From Beroe forskalii (taxonomy: Eukaryota > Ctenophora > Nuda > Beroida > Beroidae): a DNA stretch of 64,000 nt. The stretch covers positions 822,193-886,192 of the forward strand of contig WFMF01000030.1 in NCBI GenBank assembly GCA_011033025.1. The letters run 5' to 3'. How positions within the stretch are numbered: the first letter of the stretch is position 1; every line of letters begins with the position of its first letter. Position numbers and translations under genes: made by a program. The notes under the pieces are model-generated. The model had not been told where the DNA came from, did no database searches, and saw only the letters and a program-made list of their open reading frames with translations. Below are positions 3,171 to 55,754 of this stretch, piece by piece.

Positions 3171-3339
3171 GTATGGATTCTCAAGTAGTCACTTAGTAAT
3201 AAACTTATCGTTTATAAGGTAGTTCCTCTCTTGAAACAATAAGTAAAGTGCACTATTCATATGTTAGTAAGGTGGTCAGTGGTCACTCCTTACTTTTCAA
3301 GACTTTAAGATACCTGACAGGATTTGTTGCAGTATTTTC

Positions 3340-5885: not shown

Positions 5886-5959
5886 AAGTTATGTAAAGAA
5901 AATTGGGGCTTCAGATAGAAGTGGAATCATAAATATGCACATGAAAAACTGATTTAAAA

Positions 5960-6600: not shown

Positions 6601-6604
6601 AAAG

Positions 6605-8724: not shown

Positions 8725-9175
8725 TTAAATCCCCGGCCAATTCCCCGGTAAAATCACGATTTTAGGCCGGGGCCGGGGTTTAAAAATTCGGCCGGGGCCG
8801 GGACTGGCCGGGGCCCCGGTCTCTTCCTCAATTTTGGCCGGGGCCGGGAAGAGCCGGGGGCAGCGATTATGGCCGGGGCCGGGACCGGGGCCGGGGCCCC
8901 GGTCGACCCCTGCTCTGACACCAAATACCCAGGCTGGTATCCCAGTGTAAGGAACAGAAGACTCTGATCTCAAATTCCCAGGCTGGTATCCGAGTGTAAA
9001 GAACAGGAGACTCTGACATCAAATTCCCAGGCTGGTATCCTAGTGTAAAGAACAGAAGACTCTGACACCAAATGCCCAGGGTGGTATCCCAGTGTAAAGA
9101 ACAGAAAACTCTGACACCAAATTCCCAGGCTGGTATCCCAGTGCAAGGAACAGAAGACTCTGATCTCTCTGACAT
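8725..9175. repeat. GGGGCC array followed by five tandem ~50-bp units
   Basis: GGCCGGGGCC blocks run from about 8765 to 8905. They are followed by repeated units containing CCAGGCTGGTATCCCAGTGT and ACAGAAGACTCTGA at roughly 50-bp spacing to about 9165. There are no unique spacers, so this is not a CRISPR-like array. The frames across it are repeat artefacts. Confidence 0.85.
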
Positions 9176-22365: not shown

Positions 22366-22855
22366 GTTTGACCTCTTAAAGACTTGTGTTATTTCAATAT
22401 TTCACTGTAAGGTTTAGGAGGTAAACCTCTAGCATCAATACTACAGTAATGAAATCACTTGACCTCAACCACATAGCAAAAGCAGAATAATAGAATATTA
22501 AATGAAAATATTAAATGAAAAATATTAAATGAAAACTTGGTTTTGGAAGAACTGCCTGAGATCCCTATATAAGTATATATGTTTTAGTTACTTATTGTCT
22601 GATAGAGGTAAACCCATTGGAAAAACATCAGAAAAACATCAGAAATGATCTAAATCTTATGCCTATAAAAACTGATTACCAATTGATTGGGGACGATTGC
22701 CCTTGTTAAAGTCCCTTTCCTCCATTTCTCCCTTTCTCAATTTAACCCAATAATCCTACTCAACCTTCCAATTCATTCTCTACAAGTACCAAATATCACA
22801 TATCAACAGCCTTGATACTTTCGAAATTTGTTGTTGAGATATCTTATGTGTTTTT
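22178..22855 (+). mobile_element. 3' fragment of the reverse-transcriptase element
   Basis: FSGMGNEASRFLKHLA (near 22178-22230) matches the C-terminal frame of the element at 58442-60020. From about 22610 the non-coding tail also matches (GAAAAACATCAGAAATG..., AAAACTGATTACCAATTGATTGGGG..., TTTGTTGTTGAGATA). The GC-rich repeat interrupts the two matches. The fragment has no complete frame. Confidence 0.7.
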
Positions 22856-23156
22856 TTTATTATCATTGTTTACTTATCAATTATTTATGTTTGGATGTTT
22901 GCATCATACATATTGACATGGACATATTGTTTATTACATGGGCATATTGTTTTATTTTGTGATATTTATTAGAAGTGTATCTCTTTCTTGAATCATATGT
23001 TAGGAAATGTTAGGAAGTTTTTGCTATATTTTGTGGACACATTTCCAAGTAAAGCAAAGGATCTTTTTTGTGATATTAATGCTGTAAACTATGTATATAA
23101 AAATCACAAAACGTTCCCAAAATTCTATCCTTATGCTTCAAAATTCCCTCTAGTCA

Positions 23157-26100
23157 TGGCAGAAAGAGAACTTGACAAATGCCCAATCTTCTACCCAAGT
23201 GATGTGGTATCCTCAAAGAGCAACAACCTAGGTTAGTTCCTTGATCAAGCTGAAGTAGGAAGATAGTTCTGAAAGATGGAAAAGCACTTAAAATGAGTGG
23301 TGTCTGGGGTGGGTGGAGGGGTTATGTCAAGTAAGTGGCAGCTGTTGATGAGAAAAATACAATATTGACAAAATAATAACAAAAGGCGATAATTGGTGTC
23401 AGTTGTTTGAGAAGACAATTTCAGCATCTGTAGGTGGATAACAGCTTATGGAGAATGGGATTCCAGAGGGAACTATACTTGGGAGTGCTGTCTGTTATGT
23501 TTATGGAGTGTTTCATGGTTGAGATTGCAGTGTGTTGAGTCAGGCCCAGGTGGGATCTAGTGGGGAGGGCTTTGAGAATGTGGATTTAGTTCCAGGCAAT
23601 GTTATGTCCAGTTAGTGGTGATGGAGTGAAGAGCAGGAGTAGATTTAACTTGTCTGTAGTGCCAACGTCTGTTTTCCTAATATTGTGACTGGAGTTGGAC
23701 ACCTCCAACTGAACTAAATCCTGGGAAATGAACTGCATCCTGGGAAATGAAATTGTCTAATGGGTTTAAATTTATAATAGCTAAGTTTGAAGTATATGTG
23801 ATGTCTATGTGATGAGGCTAGATAGTGTAGGCTTTGGTTAATACTATTCTCAGACTTGATGAATAAATAAGTGTGTAGCATCTCTTGTGTTACTTCATTT
23901 TGTCCATATAAGAGGTAATATAGACCTTCCTGCAAATTATATCCTACAATATTTTGAATTGCTAACACTAGAATTGCTCATTTCATTTTGTATTCAGGTG
24001 TCATCATTGAGATGCCTGACTCAGATTCTGATGATGGAAGTGATGACGAAGGTATCCCAAAAGATGCTGCCATGGTGTCTTGGTATCCTAGTGGTATGTT
24101 ATTATTTATATCTATATACATGTAATGGAACATGCTATATTTCGAAGCTAAGAAATACTGTTTAGAATCATGCTTAATTAATAATAATTCGGTCTGAGAT
24201 TTGTCCCCAACATTGGGCATAATGTAGCATATAGTCTTAATAAATAACTTAATTGAATTAAAAAGTTGTCGATATTCTAAATCATCTGCTGGACAATTTT
24301 GACAATCACTGAAAAAGAGTATTTTTAGTGACATCATCCTCTCTGATGATGTTAAATGTGCATTTGTACCACTGAAAAAGTTACTTTTTGCAAAATTTTG
24401 GTCAACCTTTCAAATTTGAATCATCCTCATCCTACTTAGGTGAGGAAGAGATACTACTTCAGAAGGAGCTATCTCTGAAGAGTCGAGTTCTTGAACCAGG
24501 GATGGGTGTGGAGCGTCAGGGAGACTACAGATCTGGTGTTCTATTGGATATCAGTGCTAACTGCTCTGTGAAGTTAGTGGGCACTAACTCCCACTTGTCT
24601 AATGTACCTGGCGCCTTCCTCACTCCATGGAATGTAAGTTGTAATGTCAGTGGGACTTGAACCATGCATTAATAAGCAACAGATAACAGTTTTTTGTGAT
24701 AGATAAAAACCAATTATTGTTACTTCACAGATTTCTCTCATCCCAGTTGCACTACCACGAACCTAACGTTGTGTATGGATCCTGGCTTGGGTACATCTTG
24801 GAACTTCAGCAGACACTGATAGTGGGGTTGAAGAATGGTGCCCGAGTTCTGATGAAGTTTGACACAGCCCGGCACATGGAAGACAGCAAGTTCAGTGAGA
24901 TCAGTCCATACTACAGTGGGACATGGTATGTTGGACAAAGGCTGGAGGGCAAAGCTATGTGGTTCAAGCGAGCTACTGTGCTGTCTGGGCCCATGCCCGT
25001 GTTTAAAACTACAAAGCAAAAAGTGAAAGGTGTCGTGCTTGAGGTATGTAGAGACTAGTGGTAATGGGAAGAAATAGTGCTTTAACAAGTACAGATAAAT
25101 TGTATGCCAGATTTTCCTTTTCTTTAGAGAACTCTCTTTATATTGTCAATTTTGATGGTTAGCAAACTTATTTTGTTGCTTCTGAATAGTCTGCAACAAT
25201 CATTGATATTCGAGTTTCAACTCACTTTTATTCACAATCAGGCTATTTTAACGGGAATGGAAGTGGAATGGATTATGCACGATTTCATGGCATCCAACAA
25301 ATCTTCTGAGCCACCTCCAACACTCATAACTGGAGAGGAAATGCTATCAAAGTAACCAAATATCTACCTATAGAAGTATAGAGTTTTATTACCTCATCTT
25401 CTAATTGCTTACGTTATACTCTTCAACATATTATTTCAATGAATAATCGCTCAAGAATTTTCAGCCAAAAAATCACTTGAATAAGCTATTAATAAGTAAC
25501 TACTAAAACTTTCTATAGAATACGGGTGTTTGAAAGATATCAGCAAAGGTTACTGACAATTGGGCTCCCAGCATTATTCAGACTTCCTTCCAGCTTTGAC
25601 GTTGAGGTTAGGCTTTCTGTTTCATAGACACCATATGATCTGATGAGTTTAGAAACTGAAGACGGCAGGACCATCGGATCTTGGATCGTAGTTTGTTTAA
25701 AAGCTATTCAGAACTCCCCCAAATCAGGGATTATATTCTTTAAGAAAATGAATCTTTTCAGGAGGTAACCACGAGCGAGTGGAACTGGTCGAAGAAGATT
25801 GCCTGAAGAAGTCTTGTGACAAGTCAGAGTTGTTGCACCAATGGTACTTGGACAAAAATGTTCAGAACAGTGAGTCCTACCACGAAAGCTGCTGAAAAGC
25901 AATAAGATATCACAGATTTTAACAATGTGGGAGAATTTCAAAGTTTGAGAAAAGGTATTTGAAATTTTTGAATTGTTTAGAAACTGAAGACGGTGAAAAA
26001 TGTCTCAACCCCTAGAGGATTTCAGAATTTCAACATCTCATTCAGAAAGAAAACTGAAACCAATGAGCGAGTGGAACTGGTTGAGAAGTTGAAGAAGTCT

Positions 26101-27699
26101 ATTACCTAATGACACTATTTTAAAAACCAATGTTCAGACCAATGTTACTGCCAAACTGAGGTTGCGACCGAACACCTATTCTAACTAACGAAATTTGAGA
26201 AGTTAAATTCTAATGCTATGTAGAAAATACTACTTGACAGTCAATCCCATGCAGAAAAACCGTCTGAAACCAATACTGTTTTTTCATGCGTCCAATGAGT
26301 GTGATTTTAAACAAGCAATAATTTGATACCGCCACTGAGGTTCAGCAGGAATTGCTAACGAAATACAGATTCTCACACCATCCTACTATCAGACACCAGT
26401 CCCCATGCGTAAACCGTCCAGCTGTCCAACGAGTGTGATCAAGTGGACAATAATTTGAGCGGTTCAGCGGAGCTACGGGCAAGGAGGATTGGGGAGATTA
26501 CGAGGAGGACGAGAGTCCAAACTCCTTCGATCAACTGGCAATCGGTACGATATATCAGCTACTGTAGCCTTGCTAAAGTTCATCGTGTTTTACTGTTTGC
26601 GAAATTTAAATCTGGATTCGTTACAGAAATATAATTCGTTTTATCTTTAGAAAAGTTGAAGAGTTTTAAATGAAGAGTTGAAGAGTTTTAAATTTGAAAT
26701 AGTAAAATTATGTCTCACTTAGGTGATACTGACTCTGAAGATGAGGAAACTGATAATGATGAAGAGAACCAGTCAGAATCATGTAAGTAAGCCGAATTTA
26801 AGTTAGAGGGGCTCAAAACAGCTCTGGAATTTCAATCGACATCTTATTTCATGTTTTTGTGAAAGCCGTGACCTACGTTTGAACAAAGCTATTTTCCAGC
26901 GAGTGATCACGAGTCTGACAGTGGGCTGGATGACAGCAGCATAGAGACCAACAAGGGCACCACAGTGGAGCGATCCACTTCACCCACTACACCCCCAGCT
27001 GAGAATGTTCCAGATGTGGGGGCAGACACTGATCAGGTACAGAACTTACAGGTATCAGGTACAGATCATATTCAGGTACAACTTTCATAAATGTGTTTTA
27101 ACATGTGTTTTTGTGTGGACAGCTGGAGTAACCTGGCGTTCAAGTGGGCGGACACAAAACTTAATTGCTTTTCCAATCATTTCAACCCTTCCTGGTGTTT
27201 TATAAGCAGCGCCTCCACACCTGTTATGAGACTCCTTGATTTTTTTGGGTCGATTTTTATTGATTATTTACTGTATTTTATTTTTGTTTAGAAGCCCTCT
27301 GCGGTACCCTTCATGGGTTTTCAATCATCAAAGGTAAATTTCATATTCAGGTACAGTTCATATTTAGGTATCTTAGTGAAATACCCTATCAGCTAATTCA
27401 AAGAAAAATCTATTAATACACGACTTTGAATTCATTGAATTCTATGAATAATCATTAATCAATTAATACAAACTGCTTTGAATTCTTCTTTACTGTTTAT
27501 TCTGCTCCTTAAAATGTCTTTTTTAGTTTTAGATTGGATGCTCTTTGAAAAGTTGAAACTTTTCAGTTAGGTAAACTGTTGAAAACTTAAAAAGCAAATA
27601 GTAAAATTCTTAGATTGAAGCACTATGTAATCTTCAGCATATCGAGAAAACGGGGAGCAAAAGATGGAGTAAACGTGTCAAAACTACCAAAAATCCTGG
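23157..27699 (+). CDS. UBE2O: UBE2O exons 1-12: N-terminal conserved region and acidic/basic linker
   Basis: Exons 1-6 encode the first conserved region, from FYPSDVV through VSWYPSG, GTNSHL, SWLGYILELQ and PPPTLITGEEMLSK to RYQQRLLTIGLPALF. Exon 7 (~25762-25869) opens in phase as EVTTSEWNWSKK, then hits TGA at 25804. The +1 frame DCLKKSCDKSELLHQWYL runs on to a good GTGAGT donor, so one base appears lost or gained. Around 26040-26110 a degraded echo of this exon (GCGAGTGGAACTGGTTGAGAAG) is present. Exons 8-10 are strongly acidic (DTDSEDEETDNDEE, SSSDHESDSGLDD). The 42-base exon 27292-27333 and exon 12 (GSKRWSKRVKTTKNPG) are short and basic, as in the family linker before the second conserved region. 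Confidence 0.85.
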
Positions 27700-30600
27700 G
27701 TGAGTACTGAGTCCCAAGTTTATTTGCGCAATTTCAATAAATCTTTCCACTTAATAAGTAAAAAAATCAAAATTGAAATTAAATAAATTTCGTCAAATCA
27801 TTAAATTTCTATCCGAAAAACGAATAAATCAATTCTATCATCACCCTAACAGATGAAAACAGTTAATAGTTTCTTAGCCATGCTGGTCTTAATCGTGCAT
27901 TTCTAAAAAACTGATATTTAAACGATCCAACTCCAAGCCTCATCAACGTCCTCAACCCCCATTTACTCATTTACGCTGTCTCTTCCTCTCCTCCATCCTT
28001 CCCTCCAATATCCATGGGTGTCTGAGGCATGGTTTTGCCGGTGGGATCATCAGTTAGCATCACTGTAACGATGCAGAGCAAAGCCAATCCTACGAATATC
28101 CCAAAGGGTATACGTCTGTCGGGGAGGTTGAACAGGAGCTGAAGGTAAGGCCCCAGGAAGCTACCTATCCTGCCGAAACTACCACAGATACACGTTACCA
28201 TGCCTCTGTGAGAGGTGGGCGTGATGTCGTTGGTGTAGATGTAGGTCATGGTGTTGGCGCTGATGGTACAGAGGAAGCCCAGCAGACTTGCAATGAACTC
28301 CACGCTCCACAACTCAGAGATCTGGTAGTCGACCATTGCCAGGCAGAAGAACACCACACATCCGCTCAGCAGACCCACCAGGCCCTTCTTCTTACCCGCC
28401 AGTTTGTTGGCTGGGATCATCAAGTTAAACGCAACTGTGGATGAGCACGCAGCCAACACGTAGCTTATGTAAAGGTTACTGCTGAGTTTACCCCAACCAA
28501 ACTGGAATGTGTAGCCAAGTGAGCAGGTCAGTAACCAAAGTGGTGCCAGGAGCGCTGATTGCCTTCCAAACTTGGGGTACTTTTTGAAATCTCCTATCTG
28601 TCCGAGAATGCTCTGTTTGTGGACTTTGTAACTCAGTTCAATATCACGGAGTGTTTCCCTCTTTCCAACGGCCCTCGATGCCTTCTCCAAAACAGCCTTA
28701 GCCTGGGCTGCTCGACCTCGAGTTATGAGGAAACGAGGAGATTCAGGCAGGAACAGCAGAGGAAGGAGTGAGACGAAGGTCACCACGCTAATGATGTGGA
28801 AGATGTGTCTCCAGTCGTAGACCAGGTAGGCTACCAGGTCCAGCAGGAGGAGGCCCAGACTGTGGGAGCAGTACCCTAGAGCCGACACTGGGATGGTAAG
28901 GGAGGCGGGGAGGAACTCTAGCAGCCAGCAGAGGAGTCCAGCCCAGCACACGTTCTTACCCAGACCCATGAGGAAACGCAGGCCCAGCATGGTGAGGTAG
29001 TTGGGGCTGAAACCACTCGCCAGCACAGCCAGGAAGCTAATGAAGCCGGAGGAGATGGTGACGGTCTTCCTGCCATACTTGTCGAACAGCACCGAGGCGA
29101 TGAGGAACCCAGCGTACGCACCTGGAGTGGAAAGCAACTATTTTGTAATTGTATTTCTAAACTATATTGTGGTACATAACTGAAACTGCGCAGAATGTTT
29201 TCTTACTTTCCCTCTTATAATTATTAATGAAGCTTGAGAAAACAAAGTAAATATAATTCTCGGGATAGGTGTTGCTTTTCTGAGCTGTAACCTGCGAAGA
29301 TAATAGACGAAAGAGAAGCCATTTTCAGCTCATCCTCACAGAAAAGGCCCCACTCTATGGCCAAGGAAGTGCGGCCACCGGTCTCGAAAATGAAGTCATC
29401 CCCCATCTTCATATTTGATTCACAAAGGACCTTCTTACTGTAGAAATTCTCCTGAATGGTGTATTGTGACGCTTAACTTCTTTTTAATTTACATCACTCA
29501 TCTTGGTAAGGATGTGAAAAGAATGTAAAATACTTACAGAATATGTATCATAAGTATAAAATAATTGTAATATGATCTTTGTACTGAGTTCACGGTTAGT
29601 TCATTTGAAAAGAAAGCCTAGATTTGAAAGCATGAAAATTGATAGACACTAACGATTCTTAATAGATAAGACAGAGCTATAAAAGTAACATTGATTTAGA
29701 GAGCTGCGAGAAGAAAAAAGGGGGGAAGTTTCCTAAATAAAGTGTGCCAGTGTGTTGAAATTCAATTTCACAAAGTGCTCTAGCATAAGCGAGCGACTTA
29801 CAACAAATTAAAACACAAGGTTAATCGTCTTTACTTTAAGTTTCATGGGTAAATTCATACCCAATCGTCAGAAGACAAGTTACATGCTACATGTTACTTG
29901 TCTTCTGACGATTGGGTATGAATTTACCCATGAAACTTAAAGTAAAGACGATTAAACTTGTGTTTTAATTTGTTGTAAATAAAGCGTGAAAATCTTGATC
30001 CGTTATACCTTATCAGTGAAGTTTTGATACAACTCCTGGCAGTAATTGGATTTGCAAATCCAGCTGTCATATGGCAACAATCCTGAAAAGTTCAAGTTGT
30101 CATAAAATCATGAACTCTTTGCTTCTTTGGCACTGCACTGTCTGAATTACACAATAAAATTGCAAACCGATTTCTATTGGCACTCCAAGAATCTGAGACG
30201 CTTCATAATGCTCGAAATCATTTTGTTAAAGATCTAAAGATCCAAGACATTCAAAGTGAACTAAATGCTTCCAAGTTCTCAAATATTTATAAATTATTTG
30301 TAAAGTTGTAACTATATTGTGTTATACGAAAGGACCCAATTTGGTCATTTTGAAGCGTAAATCAAATTGAATTCATTTAAGTACCAAAAGTAACATGTTC
30401 CGAACCGGTCCGAACCAAGACCATGTTTAAATACCTATTTAAGTATTCATGTTAAATCGTTATTGAATTATTAGTTTCTTGGAACTGGTCATTGAGCTTC
30501 AGTCGAGTTTACGTAATGAAAATCAAATCCCCTTCCAATTTTTTCGATAATCCCATGATTTTCGAAAGCTTTCCGGCAATTGAGATACTTCTCGTATCAG

Positions 30601-33600
30601 TAATTATGAAACTTCTACCTATGAAGCTTTGATGAAAAGCTTCAAAATGTTTATTGTTTGTATTCAAAATAAATATCCATTTACCTGCAAATACTGTGAG
30701 GTAGGTCTGAGAGTCCACGCAGAGTCCGTAGGATAGGAACAGGACGATGATGAGAACGTGGTACACTCCAATCCTCTCCCCCATCAACTCACACACCCCT
30801 TCATCAAATGTCATCTTCCTCATATTGTCTGCTGGTCTTGGGAGTGGGATAGGATTCCGTTCTGGATCTTCTGACATCGGAGACTTTGCCTCCGGGCCCT
30901 CCTCGATTGTCACGTCATCACGAGTTGCTGTTTCTGAACCTACCTTTTCCGTAGTGCTGTGGCCACCATCCGATACATCTGTACCAGCAGTGGGCTTGAC
31001 AGTGATAAGGTTCGAGCCTCCCGGGACCCCTGCTTTAGGGAGTGATTCCATCTGCAGAGATTCACATAATTTCTCCTCCTCTCTCGCTGCTGGGTTAGCA
31101 AATACCTCTCCTCCATCAGTCGACCTTGCCTCGTTAGGGTTTAGAGTTTCCATTGTTCAGAAAGTAAGAAACGAGACGAATCTAGGGAGAAAAATTGGTA
31201 TGTGATAAAATTGAGTCTGATATTTTATTCTTATCAAAATATCAAGGTAAGTGAAGATAAGGAATCTAGTACGTGGTTGGTTATGAGTCAGTACTTCCTC
31301 TGTAGAGGGGGTGCCGACTCATCACTTTACCACCAACTCCCGCACCCTATCGGTTGGCAGGGGTTTTGGTCAGGCGTTCCGAACGTTGGACCACTGCTGG
31401 GGTCGTTTCGTGGGGAACTAGTTGGTGACCGAGCATTTTGCCAAACATTATATTATGATCTTATTGCATATTCAAGCTTCAAGTTTATCAAATAAAGAGA
31501 AGAAAAACTAGGAGTCGGGAGGTTCATTCCAACTTTGGTGAGTCTCAACAGACTTTGGTGAATTGGAATCTCCTCGTCGGTTGTTCCTGGGGAAGAGTGA
31601 TATATTTATATTTTTATACTTAAATTGAGATAAAGACAAAGTGTCAATATTTACTATAAGTAGCATGATTATCTATGTTTATGAAATTATAAAGTTATGA
31701 TAGTAATTACGAAATTTTCCTTTGGCTATCAAAGTAATATTAATTATAAAGGAAAGAGGCACTTCTACGTTTGTTCTTGAATAACTGATCAGCAGAAGAG
31801 AAGCTATTGTAATAGTGTGATGGAGTAAAATGAGAAGTCAATGTCTAACAGCGGGATGATCACTGATCAGTCCCTTTAATGATTCATGATTTTACTAATT
31901 TGAATGCAAAGTGAAGAACTTTAATAGGGTTTAGTTTGATTAGGGTTTTATGTCGATCTGAGTTGACTAGTTGTCAAAATTCATTATTATTATTATTACA
32001 AAAGGAGCTAAAAAGCCGCGATTTTTTGGAAGGCGGTAGAAAATGGCTAAACTTAAAAGATAGCATGGCCAAAAATAGGATTGAGGCTTTAGATTTTTCG
32101 TAAGTAACGTCGAAAGTCCAAAAAATCCACCCTAAAAAGAAGATCGCGTTCTAGGTTAAATTCACCAGTTGCGCGCGTTGCTATGGTTATTGGTGATTGC
32201 GCGCGCTAAACTGCACGTGCATTTTAACGAAGCATCTGCCATTTCGTTATCGTGTCATTTGGAAACGTTTCAACTGTTTTAATTCATAATTTACGTTCTC
32301 AATGAAATTTTCGAGTTCGGTAAAAAGTTTTCGACAGAAACCTATCAACTCTAATCACTATTGTAGGAGAAAAGGTAAGAGTTGAACAATTTGTTCCATT
32401 GAGAAAATCAGCGATAATTGTTTCGTATGAAGATATTTGTAGTTTCGATGGTTGGCTGTGAGGATTCGACAGAAGGAGGAATTTATAATTACTCAAGTTA
32501 GAAGTGGGTTCTAAACAGATGAAAATGCGGACAATTTTGATTTCAATGAGCTTGGATTCAAATTTGATACCCATCTTTTCTCCGAATCTGAACTTTGGAT
32601 TAGAAAACGGTCATTATTCTTGAGTTCTTCTTATTTAATGTTGTGTCCTCGACATTAATTTACAATCGCAAAATATGCAACATTTTTATTTATATTCAAA
32701 TCCTATGTAAATATTTCGTAATTTCGTTACGTTGCACCCCTACCCCCAGCAACAAAAAATTGCATCAATGACTTCGTTCAATTTATTGTACGTACAACTG
32801 ACTATACGTCCAATTCAAGTTAGGAGTGGGTTAAAAACAGATGAAAATGCGTACAATTTTGATTTCAATGAGATTGGATTCAAAATTGTTGCCCATCTTT
32901 TCTCCGAATCAGAACTTTGGATTATAAAACCATTGTTCTTTCAGAGTTCTTCTTATTTACTGTTATGTGTCCTTGACAATTGACATTAAATCGCAAAATC
33001 TGCAATATATTTTGATTCATATTCAAATCCTATGTTAATATTTCGTAATTTCGTTACGCTGCACCCCTACCCCCAGTAACAAAAAATTGCATTAATGACT
33101 TCGTTCAATGTATTGTACGTCCAACTGAATATATACGTCCAATTAAAGAGAAAACCCAACGGATTTTCTCGTATTAATTATAAAGGGTAAATTTCTCGAG
33201 TTTTATGTAACAGAACATTCCTAGTTGCTAGCTTCAGAGTTATGCAAAAATAGTTTGGGGCTTTGAAATGCAAAATTTACACGTGTTTTAAATCGTAGTA
33301 AATTATGACAAAGTTGAAAGAACTATTTCTCTCAAAAATATTCAATTCCGCGTTAATTATCGGAAATAAATGAATAAGAAGGTTGGTAGAAACTTAGAAA
33401 AGAAGAAACTGCAATGAAAAACGTAACTTCTATAACACACAATCACGGTCTAGATAGCAGAGCAAACGCAGGACGTACAGAAATAAATTGCCTATTCGAG
33501 AACTGAAAAACTCGAGACTTTATAAAACCTCTTATCTTTTCTTATCTAACGTGATACTTACTCTGAAATCTCAAAACATAAGAACTTATTTTTAATTACC

Positions 33601-36600
33601 CTGAGCACAGCACTTGCCCATTCAGAGCGTGCAATTTATTTCATTTATTGTTATCTCAGTAAATTGGAAGGTCGTGATCTTGGGGTTCCTTTGAGTTTAG
33701 TGGTCACGTCCGCGTCTGTAGGTAAAGTGCCAATATCATGTTTAAAAAGATGAATTAATGAATTTCCTTGGAGATAAAATGTGCAATGCGGCTTAAGAAA
33801 TGCCAGGCTCCTTCCGAGCTGTTGACTGACCAGTAACAACGCAAAGACCGAGTCATGTGATTTGCTTAGCATTGATGCGGTCCATTTCATTGGTTATCAT
33901 GTTATCTTAGACTTACGATAATTAAGGTGCCCGTCTAGTAACTGGAATTCAGCCGTTGATACTAAAAGCAGGAACCACCCGAAACCACCCGAATCCGGAT
34001 TTAGCCTCGCAGCCACCCGAATACATCAAATCCACCTGAAACCACCTGAACTCCTCTGAAACCACCGGAACCCACCCGAAATTAAACCTCCAAAAACTCA
34101 CACTTTGAGTGGGTTCGCATGGTTCTGCTTGTTTTGGGTGGGTTCAGGTGGTTCCATGTGGTTCCACCCGAACCTTCCAGTACCATTATGAACCCATCTG
34201 TGCTCTTTTCGGGTTGGGTTCGGGCAATTTTCATACTTTGATGAAAAAAACAATGTTTCAGGTGGGTTCGGGTTGGTTTCGGGTGGGTCTAGGTGGGTTC
34301 AGATCGGTTTGAATGGTTTCAGGTGGTTTTGGTGGTTTTGGTTGGTTTTGGGTGGTTATGTGTCTATTTTCGAAGGCGTTCTCTGAACTCACGACATGTA
34401 CGGTCTCGAAACCAGGGTGCGAGGAAGCGATTGAATAATAGGCAATCATATTCAAGATTTTATGCTTCATGTCACATGCTAACACGTGCAAAAGCGTGTG
34501 CCTAGAATAGTAGATTGACCAGCGCTATGTTTGCCAAAGAACAAAGGCTTGTAAAGTAGGTAATACCTTGTTATTCCATGAAACCGTAGAAATTCGTGTG
34601 TTATTAACTTATTAACTTATTAACGTTTTTTCAGGTGGTGTAGCAAGATTACGCCAAAGGGCCCTATTGAAGTTAGGGGGCAGTATCTTGTGGAGATAAC
34701 AGATGCAACTTACATGGCAAAGGTATGGATTCTCAAGTTGTCACTTAGTCAGTAATTAACTTACCTATCTTTTTTAAGGTAGTTCCTCTTTTGTTATAGT
34801 TATTTTGGCGCACTATTCATCAGTAGGTCGCTTCTTCCTTATTAAGGTACCTGACAGGATTGTCCACAGGATTTGCTAAAGCATTTGCTACTTTCCTCAG
34901 GTCCTGTGGGAGGACGGGTCCAAGGAGGACGTACCGTGTACGGAACTTAACCAGATAGACCACCTTGACGACCACGCTCACATGCCAGGCTACTTCGTTA
35001 ACAAGGTACTGGTTGAATAAACACCTTCGTTAACAAGGTACTGGTTCAATAAACACCTTCGTTAACAAGGTACTGGGTGAATAAACACTTTGAGGGAAAG
35101 TTTTTGAAATTTAAGATAATACTGAGATGTTGTATCATACTTGAACATGCACCTATGCACTATTTTTGTGCACTACTTTTGAACTTATGTAGATTTTCAA
35201 TACTTCAATGGACTGCCTGATCCACATTCCACTATTGTAAATTTATAGCATTGCAAAATCCACTGCTGTACTGTATCACATCATTGTAAAATCCTCTCAA
35301 ACGCCACAAACGTTCCAGATTGGCCACGTGGACGAGTTTGCTGTAGTTTCAAGTTATAACTCGAAAGACAGGACCTGTACTGTGCATTGGCTGGAGGCTG
35401 ATCAGGTATATCGCTGTAATCTAGATTATAATAACTGCACGATAGTATGAGAACATTTGGTCGTATGGCAGCTCCATCTCCTTCACTTCAAAACACTTGA
35501 TATGAATAATACTTACTACCAGGGCTGCACTTTACTTGGTACAGGGATGTGACAAATGGATATGATGAGGGGCTAAAACTCTTTTTGATATTTTTCGGTT
35601 GAACAGAATCTATGAATGATAACTGAAAAGGTAGCTGAATATTCCCTGTGATAAGGAGATCCCTAATTTAAAAACTGGGGAAAAATAACAAATGGAGAAG
35701 CCAAAACAATATTTTACAATTACGGTTGGCCGTGCGCGCGACGTCAAAACCAAATTCAACAGAAAATACTTTCCATTTCATTTTTCACTCATAAAACAAC
35801 CAAGTCTATAAAATTTGTGATCATTATTTTCTCCGCGCGGGCTTTACCATACGACCATAGTTCCTAAAATAAATATGTTTGATTACGTAATTGAACGGTT
35901 GTTCCGAGTGACAGAACCTTAGTGAGCGAGAGAATTTCACTTGAAGACCTGACGCCACGTTTTTGGACCATGACTATGTCGCACAGCACACTCGGCCTAT
36001 GAAACCCCCCTCCCCGGAATTTTACTTATATGGCGCCCCAGCGTCTAGTCCATTAACTCATGCTGTAAGCATTTCATTCGAATTTAAATATAATTAAGTA
36101 ATTATTGGATGAGGATATCAAACAAAAGGACCTTTGAACCGAATGCGATTGTGTGATTTCAGTTGTTTTGTAGTTCGAAATAAGATGCAGTTTTCTGATA
36201 TTTGCTTATGGAGCCCAATCTCGTATAGTAGTTTGCTCAAAAACGTAATAAATACGTAAAATGAGACGAATGATGATTTCTTCCCACAGATCCATTGAAT
36301 CTGTAAGTTTTTAAGAAGTATGACAACAGCTCTGACTGAAGGAAATCCACTTGATATCTTTGTACGGAAAGTAGCTCGGTCAATTGAAATTGATTCGGGG
36401 GATTGCTCTGAAGGCCATGACATTGCTACGGGATCACTAGTAGCGATACAGATATGGTGCACAGTATCATTTGTTCTTGGAGTGTCTGGTAATTGTTTCC
36501 TTTTACAAGCTATAATTCGTCATCAAGCCTTGAAAATGGACAAAATGTCTGTTTGGATCATAGAAAACTTGGCTGTATACGACATTCTCAACTGCATCTT

Positions 36601-42600: not shown

Positions 42601-45600
42601 TTAGGTGGCTTAGATACATTGACCTTTATTCCATCATTAATCTTGACCTTTCGAGGCCCCTCCTCTTCGTTTTCTTCAGGTGATAACTCAGTCGGAGGCC
42701 GCCGCAGTTCCATCTTTGATAGTATTATATTGTATGTTTTACCACACAAACTCTTGACATAAGCTGCTAGATTTGAATAAATTTGATCATAGAATATTGG
42801 GTTGAGGACAGAGTTGATAGGCAGGAAAACAACTGAAAAGAATGAGTACCAATCAGTTGCATCGAGCACCTCAAAGGAATGCAAGAAACAGATCGTGATG
42901 AATGGAAACCAACAAAGGAAATCTGTAACAATCATTATTTGTATCTTTCTTTGCGTTTTTCGGTTTCTGCCGGCAAACCTGTTTCCAACACCTGCAGAAA
43001 TTTTCTTTGAAATTGCTGCGATGGAGATGTAGCATACAGCGATGATCACCAAACAAAAAAGGTAAATTCCTTGGACACACCAGACGAAGTATCTTTGAGG
43101 ATCTTTCGATGTCACAAAAAACTTGAAAAAACAAACCTTGTTGCCATAAAATTCGACAGTTTTGACCTGGCTTGAAATTCCTCCGTAATCTCTAGAGAAC
43201 ATTTCCTGCATCAAATTCTTTATCAGATCCCAACTCATAGGACGTGCTTTCATACGACCATTGTAAGCATTGATTATTGAAAGATGCTTGGCTTTACCTG
43301 GGAAACCCAGAAAAAGTTTCAGCCTTGGATCATAACTCAACCCATTGGTGAAGAAATCTTCAAAATAACTAACAATTGGTATTATCGAAAGGGCGACAGA
43401 TATACCTACAACCCCCAAGCTGAAAACAATGATTTTAACTGCATGGGATCTAGTTACAGGTGGCGAGGAAAGAAGAAGGGAACCTTTTATTACAAAAAAC
43501 CTCAAGAGACTCAAAGAAGTCATTGAGAACATTGATATGAAAGATCCCGATATGCTTATGACCCCCAAGAAGGAACAAAATGATCCTGTTCTCCAGCTTG
43601 CTTGCAGATTACAAAACTTGTCTCCGTAATGGAAATCGTTGGCAGATACGATCAATAGATACAGCCCGACCATGAAGTCTCCTAGGCTTATGAGTAAAAC
43701 CAATGCCTTGTTGTTCAAGGTTCGGATGTTCTTGCATTTTGGTATCTTTTTGATGCCTCTCCAGATGTTAGTGACATTGAATATCACGGCTAAAATGCCA
43801 AAAATCCAAGACACTATCTTCAGAAAGGCACCCTGTAACATTTGTTTTGAGCATTGCTCATTGCACTCATCGGAGAGGTCCAGACAGTGAAAAGTCCCGT
43901 CGCATTTTTGAGGCTTCGGTATGAGTTGCATCTCATCTGCGCACTGAAAGTGATTGGTACACTGGGCTTCGTCTTCGAAATTGTCGCAATCATCAACAAG
44001 ATCACAAACCTTGGAATAAGGGATGCATTTCTTGGATTTCTCACAAACAAAGAAATCACTGTGGTATGTGTTGCGCTCTCTGACAACAAAGGCTAGGTAT
44101 GGATCTCCGTCCGTGTCGCGGGCAAAGGTCCCTGCAAAGGATTGAGGAAATTGGTCCTTGCATACACTTACCTTTGGGTACTCCGTAAGTGGACACTTGG
44201 AATTTGTACAAGAGTCAGTGCAGCTCATGAAAACGTATGTTTCCCCGTACATGTTATCACAGTCCTGCTTATACAGAGGTTTTTGGAGCTTTGGTCGTTG
44301 TGCATCATTAATCCCAAATGTTTTGTGCATTGGAAACCGAAAAGGAGACTGCTGGCACAAATCCTTCTTGAGAAAGTCCAGACTTTTCATTCCTGGAAGG
44401 CAATGAAGTAAGTTTTTAGTTGTTGTGTGCCCAGTTTTGTACCTGTGAACGGAGGTGAATATCTCTGGGAAACCTCGGGACACCTTGCAGATTTTGTTTT
44501 CAGATCCACAACTCTCGACCCCGTCGCACAAACTCTCGTAATCCACGAAGTTAACACTTCCCGTTCTACACAGAAACACGTCCTTACACTTCGTGTTATC
44601 ATCGTTCACGAAACGTTTTGTGATACCTTCACCACAAGAAGGCCACACGGATCCGTCTTCATCCTTCCCATCCAGGCAGTCCTCCACCTCATCCCCGATC
44701 CAAGGCAGTGCCAGGGGGCGCATCCCCGGGTGCCCCTTCCTAAAGCAGCGAGTTGTGGTTAGGTGGAGGCACATGGGGTCTACCTCATCACTCCCATCGG
44801 GACAGTCATTGAATCCATCGCAAAACCTGTGCTTGTGAATGAAGCACCCTCCTGAAGTCATGAAGCACAGGTTTTCTATGCCATCATCACATAGCTCTGT
44901 CTTACCCCTGCAAACCATAATCTTAGATACTGTCGAAGTGTAATTATTGATCTTGCACATTACTCCGACCCTTGATACGTCAGTACAGTTGGTCTGGTCC
45001 ATGTAATCTGTACAGGGTACGGAACTTTCGTCATCATCAGGATAGGCGTCGGTCCAACATCTGGTATGATTGAAAAGCATGATCCTCTGGCCACCAATCA
45101 AGCGGCCATTAACATGACGGTTTCCAACGCAAGTGTTGTGTATGTTGGTTGCATTCACTTCACAGTTCTCCTCATCTCTTCCATCCCGACACATGGCCAT
45201 ACCATCACAGACCTCGGTTGGGGGGAGATACCACCCCTCCTCTTTCTGCTTATGGTCGCAGTACAGTCCGTACTGGTAACCGTTGCATAGTCCCTCGTCC
45301 TCACAGTTCATAAGCTTACCTGCGCACACCCCGTCACACAGCTCAGCTTGCTCAACGGACCTGTTGGTCCTCATATAAAATCGGGGGCTGGAACTTGCGT
45401 GCGCCTCACACTCAACCTCATCTGCATCTGTGTTATCGCATTGAGATTTTCCATCGCAAAGGTAGCTGGTCTAGTGTGCTACCTCTCATTTTGTAGAAAG
45501 TGTCCATGGCGCAAATAAAATCACCGCATAGGAGGGAATCCCTGTGCAGTAATTCATAGTGTGGAGACTTGGTTGGGTCAACGCCGCAGACTTGGTAAAA

Positions 45601-48600
45601 TTTAACGTCTTCGGTGCAGATGTTGCTGAAGTATTGGTCGTAGAATATGTTCGAGTTGAAGCACTTGAAGAAGGTTTTAGAGTTTCCTCTATCAGAACAA
45701 ACGTATTTCAGAAATCCGTTCCATTCCCTGAGCTTGCATTCGAATTTATCTTTTGCTGAAAAGGCTCGACTGTTAAATTGTTATGAATGGTAACTTTTCA
45801 CGTTTCAATTAGCTTATTAAACGGGTGGTAACGAAAAAAATCAGGCCCAAAATCAATCGCCTAAAAAGAGGTGAAAATTAGGCTGGTTTAAATCAAGATT
45901 CCTCTTCGTTATAACAAAGAAGAATCTTGATTTAAACCCGCCTAATTTGCCTCTTTTTGAGCAAATGATTTTGGGCCTATAAAACGGTTTTAGGAATACA
46001 ACAAAAATCATCATTTCGTGGTGAGATGATAGAAAATTCTTTGCAATTTGGTGACTCGGGATGCCATGTTTATATGGTGGAGCAAAAGGATAGTTGAGTA
46101 TACACTTGGTAAGCCAGAAATTGTCTCAACATAGGATTCCGTGATTTTGAAAATAGATTTTAGAAGCAGTGTATAATTATAAAATCGCATGATTGGCTAC
46201 CAAAGTATGACAGCTGTTTTGAAATTATAGAATTGCGCCGATTTTGAAGTAGGCAATGAATTTAAAATTGCGCCTTGTGGATTTTCTAGTCCCTGTTATG
46301 ACTGCACATAATATTGACATACCTGGACTGTGTCTAGTAGGGGTCGTCAAGGCGTACCAGCAGCGTGATGAGATGATGATCAGCTGCACGATCCTACAGA
46401 GGGAAGCCATGCCGTTATCACTCCTGTAAAACTCTGATTTTCTTAGAGTTGAGCTGGTTTTTATACCTTGTGTCGTGACATACAAAGAATCACGACTCTT
46501 CGTCACAGATGATTTGTAATGTTCAAAAAACACAAAAACAAAGGCACCTCCTTAATGCGTTAATTGTTTCTATTATCGATGGCCTCACGGCACAAAGAAA
46601 CAATTTATAAATCAATTTATAAGCGATTAATAAATGGTCCCCAATCGCGTTTTTATTTTTATTTTTCAAAGCGTAGGAGAGTGTTGCGTTGGTGAACAAT
46701 GAAATGGTCACGGACAAAATGTGCATGTAGAAAATATGTGCATAAACTCATAATTTTTCATTCTCTTTCATTAGCTCAGCGAATGAAACGAATGAAATTC
46801 AATTAATTTTTTCGAAACTTTAACGTCATCGAAAATGTGACAATGATAAGTCGATTAGTATGTTAGGCTGTATAATAATATAAACATAAATAAATGTATT
46901 TTGTATTATGTATTTTACGATTAGTTTCTGAGATTTTCACATTAATTTATATAATTTATTTATTTATTTAATTTTTGATTCTTGACTTTAGAATTTTAGA
47001 ATTTTTAATTTTCATGATTTTTCGTATTCATTTAATAAAGTTAATTCTATATCATTGTCAGATTTCCTGATAACGTTGAAGTTTCGACGAAATTGATTAA
47101 ATTTCAGAAAAACTTCGTTTCACATCGCTGAGCTCCCCTCTACTCCCCACTCCCTCTCCACTCCCTCTCTACTCCCCACTCCCTCCCTACTCCCTCTCAA
47201 CTCCCCGACTCCCTCCCTACTCATTTCTTCCTCACTAGTCCCTACTCCCCACTCCCTCTCTATTCCCCACTTCCTCCCCACTCCCTCTCTACTCCCTTCT
47301 CCCTCTTTATTCCATTTTACAAAACCCTCTGGCCTCGCTACCTCTTGCTCCCATCCTACTCCCTCTCTACTCTCTACTCCCCCACTCCCTCTCTATTCCC
47401 TATTTCCGAACCCTCTCTACTCCTGCTCACATCCTACTCCCTCTCTACTCCCCGACTCCCTCTCTTCTCACCCACTCTCTCTCTGTTCCCTATTCCCGAA
47501 CCCTTTCTACTCCTGCTCCCTCCCCACTCCCCCTCCCCTCCCCCAGTTGTTAGTGCAGTGGACTGACGGCGTGATCACCACCATCACCCCTGACAAGTGT
47601 GTGCACCTCACCTCCTCCGACACGGACTACGAGGACATTTCCGAGGACGACTACGCCGAGGCGGACGACGACACCAGCAGCTGGATGACGGCCGGAGAGC
47701 GACTGGGTGACGACCGACGACAGTGAGGACGAGTAAGTTTGTTTGTGTCGAATGTCTGTTTGATTTTTTTTGTGCGATGTTTGTATTTTTCAAGTGGTCT
47801 GTGCGAATACGGAACTTTATTTTTTATTTAAAATCACAAATAGTATACACAACAAATTATACATTGTCACTTGCCCTACATAAAATCATTCATGAACCAT
47901 GAGGATGCCCCAACCAAAAGATTTGAATAATCATCGTTGAATATAAAAAAAACATAGTAGAGCCTAACTTGTTGCATATGCTATGGGTGGGCACGTACAG
48001 AGACTTCTCTATGCTGCACAATTACGCCCTGAAAATCTTAAATCACACAATTGGTTGATTACATTGTAGGTAAATTTGCAATATTTATTAAGTAATAAAT
48101 AATGCATGTGTGACCAAATTAAGGTTTATCTGGTCGTAAATTATGCGTCTGGCACCACTGAACCAATGATATTTGCCAGTTTTCGGTGGGTTTCATGTAA
48201 AATTTTAAAAAATAATTTAAAAAGCACCCTTTTTATTACCTCTCAAGCTCTCAAACAGTGATCTGTGTACAACTTCATTTCTCAGGCATCCAGATTCCTG
48301 AAAATTCAAAATTTGACCGATTAAGCTGAAACTTTGCACGCAATTCATTTAAGACCTAAAAAGTTGAAAGTGAAACAATGTGGATGAACGAACATGAACA
48401 TAATATCATAATAATACATTAAAGAAAAAAAAGTGGTGGTCGGTGGGCTGCCACTGTGACGCAATCGTGCGATAACATAAAAGCATAAAGGTGCGATATC
48501 TTACGATTGGAGGCGCTTAGAAACATAGGGATTTCACACATTTTGATTTCACAGTATTTATAGGTAAATTAAATAATAAAATAAGGTACGTTTTCTGTAG

Positions 48601-51600
48601 TTGCCAACCCCTTTAAACAACGAATGTAGCAAAAGGAATTTGGAATGAGAACCAAATAAAATAAAACTGTTCCACTTCTACTTGCACCTTGTAAAACGTT
48701 ATCATATCCTGTTTTTTGTATTCAGCATTTCATGTCCAAAAGTTAAAACATAACTGAATTTACGAACATTTTACGTCAAGATTATTCCCTTCACTTAGTC
48801 ACTTGCTACTGCTTTACACTCTGTCCATCATGTCCCCGATATTCTGCTTCTCTCACGTACCATCTGCTGCATTGTCAACCGGAATCATGTCAACCACACC
48901 CGGAACCATGTCAACCACACCCGGAACCATGTCAACCACACCCGGTACCATGTCAACCACACCCGGTACCATGTCAACCACACCCGGTACCATGTCAACC
49001 ACACCCGGAACCATGTCAACCATTGGTATCTCATTCTGGTCAGTAGCTCCAGCTGACCTCCTGAACTTCGTGTTTCTCATTCGCTTGATTTGCGCTGCAA
49101 TCCACTCCGAGTTGAATACAGGGTTGAGCAGGCTGTTGGCGGGTAGGATGATAACAGCTGTCACCTCAAACCATCCATCAGGCACGTACTTACGAGTATA
49201 GTTGTAGTAGGTCACTGCTCCGATGATGGTGAGCCATGAAACAGCTTGGTGCCAAGGATCAGCGCTACTTTTATCTTCAGATCATCCTCCGTGTTGCCTC
49301 CAGGCGCGTTCACTGCTCGCTGTCCCTGTATAAATACTTTAACGATGATAAGGTAGCAAAGGGAAATGCATATTACAACTGCTGCAACCGCTACTATATA
49401 GAACATCTTGTAGATTTCCAGGGGTTCCCGATACCCGAACAGATCCTGTACGCACACAGGCGACCAGCTGTAAAAGGATAGCTCTTCATGATCGAAATAT
49501 TCGGGCCGATTTGTGACAGACTTCAGGGCATCCAGTTTTTCATAAATCCCCAAATTCGAATTATTTTCATGGAAATATTGTTGAAAGAGCCTATCTACAT
49601 GGGATACGTTATTGAAATCCCAGATTATGAAGGGGTTTCCCCGTGGCAGAGTGAACTTAACTCTGAAAATATCCTGTATGGTCTCCAAAGGTACGACAGG
49701 AAGGATAGCATGTGTCAAGTTGAGAAGGAACATTACCCCAGAGAGACCTACGACCACCCTGACAGACATTCCCCGGGAGTAGGTGAACACCAGCTTGTAA
49801 GCCCGGGTCAAACTCATCAGCAGGACTGTTAGCAGGGAGCCGTGGGTGGAAAAGTTAAACGTTATTCCTAAGACCTTGCAAACCCATCCGGACCTCCAGT
49901 GGTGATCATGAATGCAATAACTTCCATAGTACCGCAAATTGGCCACAATCAAGGAGAAAAGATAAATTCCTAGCAGTGTATCGTAAAAACAAGTTTGAAA
50001 CTTAAGAATCCTGTCAACTTTAGCATGGCTTTGCTGTGTTGACCAGGATGGTTTCATCAGTTCTCTGAGAACAGAGAAGTTCATGACCAGGTTCCCAAAG
50101 CACGAGAGTACGAGGAAAACGAAGATTCCATGATTTCTGACAATGAACTCGTCCGAGGACAACGGACCTCTCGAACAGTTCGAACATTCGTCTAGGCCAT
50201 TTTCGCAATCCTTGTAGCTGTCACAGATTGAACTTGGTGAAACCCAAGATACGTCATAGTGCTGTCCCTCGCCCATGTTCACCAACCTTGCTTCCGAACA
50301 GTAGAACCTTTCTAAGCAACCTACTTCGTCCGATCTGTCATGGCAATCAAATCTTCCGTCACATACTTGCCATGTGCTCACCGCGTCCATGCTGATAGGA
50401 CAATAATAATCCAAACTTTCCGACCAACCACCTTTCAAATTATTGCAAAATTGTTCTGTTGCAAAGCCCTTGCATTCCCATGCACATATTTGTGATACCC
50501 TAGACAATACCTTCGCAGAAGAACCGAATCTGTCAAGAAAATCGTATATCACAGACATGCACTTGCTGATATAATCATGCCCTGGTAGTTTCTGGGGGTT
50601 TGGGAATGGTAAATTTTCACAGGCAGATCTGTCACAATTGCTCAAGTATTTCCCAAGATTGAGGTCCGCGTGACAGAGAAGGTACGAGGAAAAAACTAGT
50701 TTAACCTGTCTTTGATGTGAAAACGAGGGGTAATAATGAGTCGTTATGTTGCAGGAGAACTCTACGAGGTCATCGCACATCAGCTCATCAGACCTATCGA
50801 GACAATCATAGATGCCATCACACACCATGTTAAGGGTGATGCAGCCTTTTCCATCACTGCAGTAGAACACTTCTATGTCATCAGGACAGTCACATTCATC
50901 TACAAGACAGTCAGTTCTGCCGTTACAGACATCACTCGGCCTTATCATGCAGAACCAATCATCAGCCAAACACGCATCCGAAACAATCTTCTTCCCTCTC
51001 ACTTGGCACGTTGATAGACTCACTGGGAAAGGACACTCGATTTTTCCTGGAACATCGACTAGAACGTCCAGATGCTGGGTTTCGTGTACGGTGAGTTCGG
51101 TACACCTTTCGTTCGAAATAGAGTCTGAAAACACATTATTGAGGTGGAGCAATCTTTTAGAGGACATACCCCCTGATAGAAGCAGCAGAATAGTGATGAG
51201 GAAGGTTTCAGACATGTTTTCCATCACAGGGGTGGGTGTCTGAAAAATGTAGGATTTACTTATCTAGTATGTCGAATTTGCGATTAAGAGAATGTAAAAT
51301 CTGGGATTTATATCAAACTTGTGAGCTTCTAAAATGGCCTATGCAGGTACCGTTGAAAAGCAAATCACGTGAGTTCGGTAAAATGATCTAGGTCAAAAGT
51401 CACCTACTGCTCCCTTTCGGCAACTAGCGATCCCCTAATTTGAATTTTAGTGTGATACCATCTGCAAACTCCAGATCCAAGACGAAGAGCCACAACTAAC
51501 ACGATACATTTTTTCACCACAGTAAAAACCAAGATGAAAATATTATCCGATGCGTCAGCACTAAGGCGTTCACGTGACATATATCTTACGAAATTTAAAT

Positions 51601-54600
51601 ATCATGGGGTGCTTCCCTTTGGAATGGAAATTATTGTCCTTTTATCTAAATCAATTCAAGCTTTTTTGAATGCATCATCCAATGATGATAAATGATTGAG
51701 TGAGAAGGAGTTAAAGCAATTTCTCTCGAAAACGAAGATATAGGTTGGTAAAACAATCGAAATAATTTAGCAATTTCCCACTGATAACGAAAATATAGGT
51801 TGACCGTTATGAAACAGATTATTCTTGGTTATTTATCATGTTACTAGCAATGGCCCACTGACCTTCGACTGCAAAATATAATTCTCGCTGGAGCGAACAA
51901 CTGACCGATTATGAAACAGATTATTCTTGGTCATTTATCATGTTACTAGCAAGCCCGTTGGACCTACTGTGCGTGCAATCAACCAATTAAAACACTGAAT
52001 CTCTTGAAAACTTGAAATGCTTGTTCTGCCAATTGTGTTACCAGTTACTTTTATTACTTTTGATCTTAGACTCACATGCAATAACCCAGACTCATCTTTA
52101 TTGACATATAAGACACGGTGCTCTCTGAGTATATTGAAGTGTACCCCTCGACTTCGTCTTGGGATTACAGTCAATGTGTATTTCCGCAGGGAATCTAAGT
52201 GTCCTGAGACAGTAGCCGAAGCTGTGGGAATGTTCGAAGCCAAGTTAGCAAACAGCTCGACGGCTGAAGCCGAGGGGGCAGATCCCGAGGACAATGAGGA
52301 CGGAGAATTCCAAGAGGCCCCAACTGAACCTCTGGAAGATGGTGTGGAGGATGGGAATGAGGGAGGAGGGGGAGGGATGGCAGATAGTGTGGCGAACACC
52401 AGCTCCAACTCCGCTTCTGAGTCCCATGGGGAGTTGTACGAGGATTTACTGAGCAGGGCTCTGGCACAGGTTAGAAATGAGGCTTTTTTAAAATGTTTAC
52501 TTTTAGATTGTACAATAATTTACGATTGAATCATGAGTGTCATATTTTGTGTTTGTAAAAAGGTAAAACAAAGTGATCATTTAACTTAACTTTGAAATTA
52601 AATACTTACTAAGTATCCACTTACTCCACCGTAGAAGTCAGCAGACGAGGAAAGGAAGAAAGCCCTGGAAACGTTAGAGGAAGGAGAAGATATCATGATT
52701 AACAGGGACCAGGCCAGATGGGGTTAGTAACTTATTATCTAGTCTGAAAGTGTTGTATGTGATGAAATTTGGATCTGTTTTGAATACATAGCTAATAAAT
52801 GTCGTTTTTATTAATTAATTTTTATGCAATAAATTAAATTAAAATACTGAGCAATGTGAGGAACCTAAGATTTTATCTCTTTGCAGCTGCCTCAGACGCT
52901 GAACCAGGTCAGGAAGCGGTTCCGGAACAGCAGGAACACCCACTCAGACAGCGAGACCACCGAACTCTGCGGAATGGTGGAGGTCTACGCTGCCATGGAG
53001 GAACACGCTGCCATTATCAGTTAAACGAACACGCCGCCATATCAAGTGGATATTACGACAGTTCATCTCAGGACACTTCAGATCTCCTTTAACCCAGACC
53101 CCAACCTTTGCTCGGAATTGAAATATTACGATGAAGTGGTCGTGAAATGAAATATCGTTAAGATGAGATGTCAGTTACTTGCATCAGGTACAGTGCTCGA
53201 ACTTACACACCAGTCACCACCATTACCAGATATACAGATACAGTGCGCACGCCGCTAGTATCAAGTACAGTGTGCGAACTCATCATAATATGGTTCTTGA
53301 TAGTCAGTTTATTGCTAGATGATAATCCTCATTCACACAGAACTTTACCCTATTCAGTGAAAGTTTCAAGATGATCTCCGTGTGTCCGGCCACCCACCAC
53401 TTCTACTCGCATTCCTCTCCCGGCGCCTTCCACAGAGAGTTCCTCAGTGCGGTTAGGAAGGATATCAAACTCATCAGTAGCAACCTCCCAGCTGGGATAT
53501 GGGTCAGAGCCTACGAGGACAGGATTGTGAGTGTGCAGCGAAGTGCAAACCATTCTTTTCCTAGCTGTTCCATTTCTAGTGCTCCTGGCTACAATGACAT
53601 TTCACACAACCAATCATTCGATGGTTCCAGTAACATTCACTTACCCCTCTTCCAGGATCTGTTGAGTTGTTTGATTGAAGGTCCGGCAGATACGCCCTAC
53701 GAAGGCTCCCTGTTTGTGTTCGACATCCAGCTGCCTACCAGTTACAGCACCTCACCCCCTCTCATACACTACGTCAGCTATTCAGACACCAAGCTTAACC
53801 CCAATCTCTACCCCGAGGGAAAGGTTAGTAGTCAGCTACTCCACACCAAGCTCAACCCTTGGGAAGGATCCCAAAACGGACACAATAGGCGCATATCTAT
53901 GTTTTTTGGCATGAGTGTGTTGATGTTCAAGATATTTCCAATCGTAGCGTTTGTCAGGTCTGGCAAAATGCTAAAAAGGTGGGTTGTCTGGGTGTATTAA
54001 CATTCACAACGTGGTGCGAAGGTCCAGTCTGTTGGTTATGATAATATTATGCAATATATCAATCTCAGGTGTGTTTGAGTTTATTAGGGACGTGGATGGG
54101 ACGGGGCACCGAACAGTGGACCAAGACCTCCAATCTGCTGCAGCTATTTGTCTCGGTACAGAGTCTTGTGCTGAACGCGACACCGTACTACAACGAGGTG
54201 AGGAGGTTGTTTTAAGAATTATCTGATGAATCAAGTGGTTAGTTGGTTTAGGAATTATCTGATGAATCAAAAGATACCGGGTGTATTGGTATCTCGTTCC
54301 CTCCGGCACGGGTCGAAACGTACTATAACGAAGTGAGGATCCGGAGCTTGTTTTAAGAGTCTCTTTGGTTACTGTACTTTACAAATATCTGGTGAAACGA
54401 AACTATAACGGTGATTCACGGAGTGTTGTTTTAGAGTCTCTTTGGTTACGTATAACCATCACTGATGAATCTGAAACTTTAATATAGCTCCAGTATCATG
54501 ATATCACACAGATAAATAATATTCTTAAAACTAGGCAGGTTTCGAAAGTCCACGACCAAGAGAGAGATCATCTTCATATAGCACTCACTGGCGTTCGTAC

Positions 54601-55754: not shown

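Follow-up and report, generated by a model that had tools for sequence, protein, structure and literature searches.

Four protein-coding genes that very probably lie nested, one per long intron, in a UBE2O gene of the ctenophore Beroe forskalii

The window analyzed here, which forms the 64-kb end of contig C359 (886,192 bases), very probably contains a single UBE2O gene that hosts four protein-coding genes, one per long intron, with the guests being inserted gene copies. On the plus strand, colinear UBE2O exons extend from 23156 to 54.7 kb or further, with all four guests between them: a SLC22-like transporter gene, a class A GPCR gene and two LDLa-GPCR genes, termed LDLa-GPCR1 and LDLa-GPCR2 (Table 1). 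In our 20-exon model, all of the introns (19/19) carry GT-AG signals. The host with four intronic guests thus agrees with the original prediction, and so do the strands, with the GPCR gene on the plus strand and the SLC22-like, LDLa-GPCR1 and LDLa-GPCR2 genes on the minus strand. The guests sit where they had been placed, but the intron numbers given for them (12, 15, 16, and 17) are each one lower in the 20-exon model (11, 14, 15, and 16). Additionally, three membrane receptors had been counted among the guests, whereas by family all four are multi-pass membrane proteins. The window has no N, and the genome searched comprises 216 Mb in 1134 contigs.

Table 1 Features of the UBE2O locus (window coordinates unless a contig is given)
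Feature	Position	Strand	Remarks
Upstream copy of UBE2O (second, partial)	C359:812393 to window 3260	+	Tail 1054-3260; exon 12 at 3083
UBE2O exon 1	23156-23231	+	Start codon; phase 1 at end; 76/76 bases identical in upstream copy
UBE2O exons 2-6	23998-24093, 24440-24633, 24747-25043, 25242-25351, 25519-25606	+	tSH3-B domain
Garbled stretch in place of UBE2O exons 7-8	25776-26600 (limits approximate)	+	
UBE2O exons 9, 10	26723-26782, 26900-27036	+	
UBE2O exon 11	27614-27699	+	Basic stretch; least certain among the exons used
UBE2O intron with SLC22-like gene	27700-34634	+	Guest on minus strand
SLC22-like main exon	27971-29137	-	MFS_1 (Pfam); PDB SLC22A1, E=1.1e-25
SLC22-like first exon (probable)	within 30509-31156	-	
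UBE2O exons 12, 13, 14	34635-34722, 34901-35005, 35319-35405	+	Most of SH3-B domain (PF23043)
32-bp minisatellite	34993-35088	+	3 copies; unit is exon 13 end plus splice donor
UBE2O intron with GPCR gene	35406-38531	+	Guest on plus strand
Class A GPCR, single exon	36320-37378	+	352 aa; 7tm_1
UBE2O exon 15	38532-38669	+	End of SH3-B match and first part of SH3-C match
UBE2O intron with LDLa-GPCR1 gene	38670-47546	+	Guest on minus strand
LDLa-GPCR1 open exon	42321-45470	-	1049 codons; LDLa and 7tm_1
UBE2O exon 16	47547-47732	+	Remaining SH3-C match; frame shift near exon end
UBE2O intron with LDLa-GPCR2 gene	47733-52189	+	Guest on minus strand
LDLa-GPCR2	about 48853-51263	-	Open to 49212 (683 codons), then other frame to ~48853
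UBE2O exons 17, 18	52190-52469, 52635-52722	+	From splice model; left out of domain search
UBE2O UBC-domain exons	53341-53526, 53656-53823, 54069-54197, 54685 to about 54753	+	PF00179

The host is recognized as UBE2O by its domains, which follow one another on the plus strand in the order tSH3-B (PF23046, exons 1–6), SH3-B (PF23043, exons 13–15), SH3-C (PF23044, exons 15 and 16), and UBC (PF00179, from 53341). Specifically, the exons between 23156 and 25606 give a 287-residue piece that matches the Pfam family tSH3-B_UBE2O (E=2.3e-21) and residues 121–355 of the PDB UBE2O chain 9mc4_B (E=2e-23). Exons 9–16 give a 280-residue middle piece, which matches SH3-B_UBE2O over residues 148–198 (E=1.3e-6) and SH3-C_UBE2O over residues 204–260 (E=1.1e-9); its identity is based on Pfam, since it had no match among PDB sequences at 0.001. 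The UBC part matches PDB UBE2O chains with a best E of 1.1e-53, and 9mc4_B, matched here at 926–1102, is therefore matched by both the N-terminal and the UBC parts. We infer that the SH3-type and UBC parts belong to one protein in this genome as well. The UBC exons appear as a single copy in the genome search, in which four of the ten matches are this gene and the other six stay at or below 39% identity. The domain and PDB searches covered exons 1–6, exons 9–16 up to the tail of exon 16, and the UBC exons to 54753, but not exons 7–8, exons 17 and 18, or a probable exon at ~52.9 kb. Spliced alignment at a low intron penalty over-split the weak regions, so conserved exons were retained and small spurious ones were discarded. 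A candidate exon at 32324-32458 was also rejected in favour of that at 34635-34722, which suits the phase and has an identical counterpart in the upstream copy described below.

The domain matches also bear on the unity of the host. From the exon lengths, residue 188 of the middle piece marks the end of exon 14 and residue 234 the end of exon 15. The SH3-B match therefore extends across the GPCR intron, as the SH3-C match does across the LDLa-GPCR1 intron, which argues that the host is one gene there; these two matches across guest introns are the best sequence evidence for a single host, and they make the case of two separate half-genes, against which the one-gene claim had been set, unlikely. 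No domain match crosses the SLC22 intron or the LDLa-GPCR2 intron, and the single-gene case across these two is based on exon order, splice signals, and the known UBE2O chain.

The four longest introns of the model measure 6935, 3126, 8877, and 4457 bases and hold one guest gene apiece, and the coding parts found of all four guests lie wholly between the flanking host exons. The remaining 15 introns range from 113 to 1116 bases. The 1116-base one is no true single intron, because the garbled exons 7–8 fall inside it, and neither is the 618-base one (52723-53340), because it probably hides the exon near 52.9 kb. The host is compact (~32 kb), its four longest introns are exactly the four with genes, and two of these cut through SH3-domain matches. 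About 2 kb separates the LDLa-GPCR1 open frame from the next host exon. In the stretches scanned, AATAAA or ATTAAA motifs follow three of the four guests, with none for LDLa-GPCR1, which is weak evidence that guests have their own transcripts.

The splice-phase chain claimed for the host exons breaks twice in the window, at exons 7–8 (about 25.78-26.6 kb) and at exon 16, and the open frame across the spliced exons is therefore not continuous. In the first region, the stretch aligns to the upstream copy only as mixed pieces with many gaps (64–70% identity in two longer alignments), whereas the flanking exons 5–6 and 9–10 are 93–100% alike to it. The upstream copy has both exons 7 and 8 with an open frame, near C359:816018-816129 and 816251-817024. 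This pattern suggests that the garbled stretch is a consensus error in the assembly. In exon 16, a stop is reached before the strong GTAAGT donor at 47733, which suits exon 17 but lies in another frame. The breaks probably reflect assembly error or a defective allele, and both seem likelier to us than a dead UBE2O, given that the UBC exons, of which the search gave a single copy, have an open frame.

Among the guests, the SLC22-like gene is assigned by its main exon, whose best PDB matches are SLC22A1, OCT1, and OCTN2; TIGR00898 scores 160.9 bits on it, below the curated cut-off of 550.75. The translation of 30509-31156 had no Pfam match, and the first exon is probably contained in this stretch, to judge from its position and from the N-termini of SLC22 proteins. 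The main exon recurs at C359:818714-819877 with 2 non-synonymous and 33 synonymous changes (dN/dS 0.02) and is under purifying selection. A short repeat inside the gene, at window positions ~29747-29978, matches dozens of contigs on both strands and resembles a palindromic mobile element.

The plus-strand GPCR is a class A receptor, scoring 58.7 bits with 7tm_1 (cut-off 30.5), and its best PDB sequence match is P2Y1. The class A model has at least 139 matches in the genome, which, like UBE2O and the intron-rich genes, fits an animal; a search for the GFP family gave no match, which is no sign of its absence. Relatives of this gene occur on many contigs at 67–96% DNA identity (21 matches, itself included). 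Compared with five open-frame copies, with the copy on contig C694 left out, its dN/dS is 0.28–0.35, and the gene is under purifying selection.

LDLa-GPCR1 likewise passes the class A cut-off (7tm_1, 53.5 bits against 30.5) and matches gonadotropin, thyrotropin, and relaxin receptors in the PDB. No convincing upstream start exon was found for this gene. The genome search gave at least 46 matches at ~44 places including itself, the others at 39–68% protein identity, and 42 of the 46 have no stop. The LDLa-GPCR family is large and dispersed over these ~44 places, its coding part being one long open exon of 768–1296 codons. LDLa-GPCR2 had been listed as a second minus-strand LDLa-GPCR gene, but its frame is lost in the sixth-transmembrane region, and it is not intact in this assembly. 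The open part to 49212 matches only Ldl_recept_a (E 0.001), and no 7tm_1 match places it in class A. A relative on contig C396 has a 750-codon open frame and 87–89% DNA likeness to it. Between the two, dN/dS is 0.25 over 643 codons, all upstream of the break, and this upstream part of LDLa-GPCR2 is under purifying selection. Within 30 kb around the C396 relative, no UBE2O exon match was present among those displayed (at least 150 bases; one shorter match is outside this set), nor was a UBC exon found on that contig. The dN/dS values of the GPCR (0.28–0.35) and LDLa-GPCR2 (0.25) indicate that these guests are functional now or were until recently.

The locus also occurs in further, partial copies. 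The upstream copy on C359 (Table 1) corresponds to window 22379-34820 in seven alignment blocks of 78–95% identity, and holds UBE2O exons 1–6 and 9–12 with SLC22 between exons 11 and 12. Over the 287 codons of exons 1–6, the two copies differ by nine synonymous and no non-synonymous changes. Exon 9 is 93.3% and exon 10 is 95.6% identical, and exon 12 is identical; exon 11 (94.3%) has two gaps and is out of frame. The dN/dS of 0.85 for exons 9–12 is inflated by these gaps and was excluded as evidence. The ends of the upstream copy fall within repeats or close to them, and it breaks off shortly before exon 13, beside a 12-bp repeat, about where another contig, C15 (17,341 bases), begins. C15 aligns in blocks to window 34854-42882 and repeats exon 13 (97.2%), exon 14 (96.6%), the GPCR (96.4%), exon 15 (98.6%), and the terminal 562 bases of the open LDLa-GPCR1 exon. 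On C15, ~6.5 kb of inserted DNA (C15:10550-17059) splits the LDLa-GPCR1 tail and includes a repeat that recurs at window 5709-8915.

Synonymous divergence from the window is 0.049 (exons 1–6) and 0.126 (SLC22 main exon) for the upstream copy and 0.081 (GPCR) for C15. Together, the upstream copy and C15 are either one second haplotype misjoined in C359 or a true partial duplication, and the similar order of these divergences leans to one haplotype. The minisatellite at the end of exon 13 recurs on C15 (L015 455-1452) with ~31 copies; as its unit carries the exon 13 splice donor, it would form a run of decoy donors. It is rather unlikely that the upstream copy is real and no misjoined haplotype, with the exon 13 end now a length-variable minisatellite whose decoy donors differ between copies. 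If the upstream copy were real, the gene would have two alternative UBE2O 5′ halves and one shared 3′ half, and the giant intron of the upstream start would further enclose genes for a kinase and an MFS protein as well as a large gene on the plus strand.

Other coding sequence was noted around the host. A plus-strand gene at about 15-21.2 kb of the window presumably resembles ECM29; it gave no Pfam family with four pieces and no PDB chain with one piece. A 429-codon open frame at 58442-59731 had no Pfam match at 0.01, and we take it to resemble retrotransposon coding sequence.

The upstream copy and C15 weigh against the reading that the nesting is an assembly artefact, in which receptors from elsewhere were joined into a UBE2O gene with truly short introns. 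C359 is not flawless, given the partial second host copy with ends in or near repeats and the ~0.8 kb garbled stretch. However, C15 has the GPCR and the LDLa-GPCR1 3′ end in the same introns, the upstream copy has SLC22 between the same exons, and no N interrupts the window. Three of the four placements (SLC22, GPCR, LDLa-GPCR1 3′ end) are hence seen in a second assembled copy, all contigs being from one assembly, and only LDLa-GPCR2 is placed by the window copy alone. We therefore consider such an artefact quite improbable.

The arrangement is best explained by gene copies, at least receptors from dispersed families, that landed in UBE2O introns through DNA duplication or retroposition. The guests would persist because splicing removes them and they have promoters of their own, the host introns would have been lengthened by these insertions and by transposons, and no regulatory link between host and guest would be required. 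Duplication into introns is, we infer, the likeliest origin of the guests. Relatives of the GPCR and LDLa-GPCR1 on many contigs point to gene spread rather than to functional pairing with UBE2O. For the LDLa-GPCR2/C396 pair, DNA duplication is favoured, because their match extends in patches into the non-coding flank at either end. The spread into introns is read from the UBE2O locus alone; at six further loci with relatives, taken with short flanks in addition to C15, nesting was not shown. The first 23 kb of the window contain three genes, and by rough estimate this local density would lead one to expect ~3 genes in the four long introns, which total 23.4 kb. The locus is a natural test case for whether the settling of dispersed receptor genes in introns is a matter of chance.

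It is conceivable that the arrangement is selected, with antisense guests tuning UBE2O or the receptors being co-regulated, which would be compatible with the spread of gene copies into introns. Three of the four guests are antisense, and one paper reports transcriptional interference by human nested genes and also cites work without expression correlation (PMC3192792). Yet an antisense orientation is in any case found in about two thirds of human nested genes (PMC4394429), and relatives of the GPCR and LDLa-GPCR1 are again found on many contigs; judged from sequence, we regard selection for the arrangement as very improbable. That an SH3-domain gene and a separate UBC gene lie here side by side is hardly credible: the frame break in exon 16, which directly precedes the LDLa-GPCR2 intron, and the lack of a domain match across that intron speak for it, but known UBE2O has both parts in one chain, and here both stand in UBE2O order on one strand.

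Our search of open-licence papers returned no report of genes nested in UBE2O, the search for nested intronic GPCR genes found none, and that for several nested genes in one host returned only unrelated papers. Nested genes as such are well documented: they make up ~10% of fly genes and ~1% of human genes, and two thirds lie on the strand opposite to their host (PMC4394429). In the glass sponge Aphrocallistes vastus, with a genome of ~80 Mb, 2432 nested genes account for 12.4% of all genes; the passages cited describe no UBE2O case (PMC10282587). Human MOB2, according to a figure legend, hosts 13 nested genes (PMC4394429) and so resembles UBE2O in having many guests in one host, but among its guests are DUSP8, genes for keratin-associated proteins, and non-coding genes, and the host spans ~295 kb as compared with ~32 kb here. 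Human NF1 is likewise one large host, with four intronic genes, OMG, EVI2A, EVI2B, and AK4P1 (PMC4394429, figure legend). In NF1, as far as that legend tells, all guests are on the opposite strand, three share an intron, and a different intron holds the fourth, a pseudogene, whereas in UBE2O each of the four introns has a single guest; three of these guests are antisense, the other is sense, and one of the four is frame-broken. In another ctenophore, Hormiphora californensis, 2357 nested genes are reported in 1654 hosts, and the Figure 4 legend describes four genes in one host, as in UBE2O (PMC8527503). Two of those four are doubly nested, and the Hormiphora nesting is supported by Iso-Seq, whereas the UBE2O case is known from genome sequence. 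With hosts of four (NF1 and the ctenophore gene) and 13 (MOB2) guests in the parts of these sources cited, calling four guests unusual was too strong; since hosts with four or more guests are already known, the UBE2O locus is a good but ordinary example.
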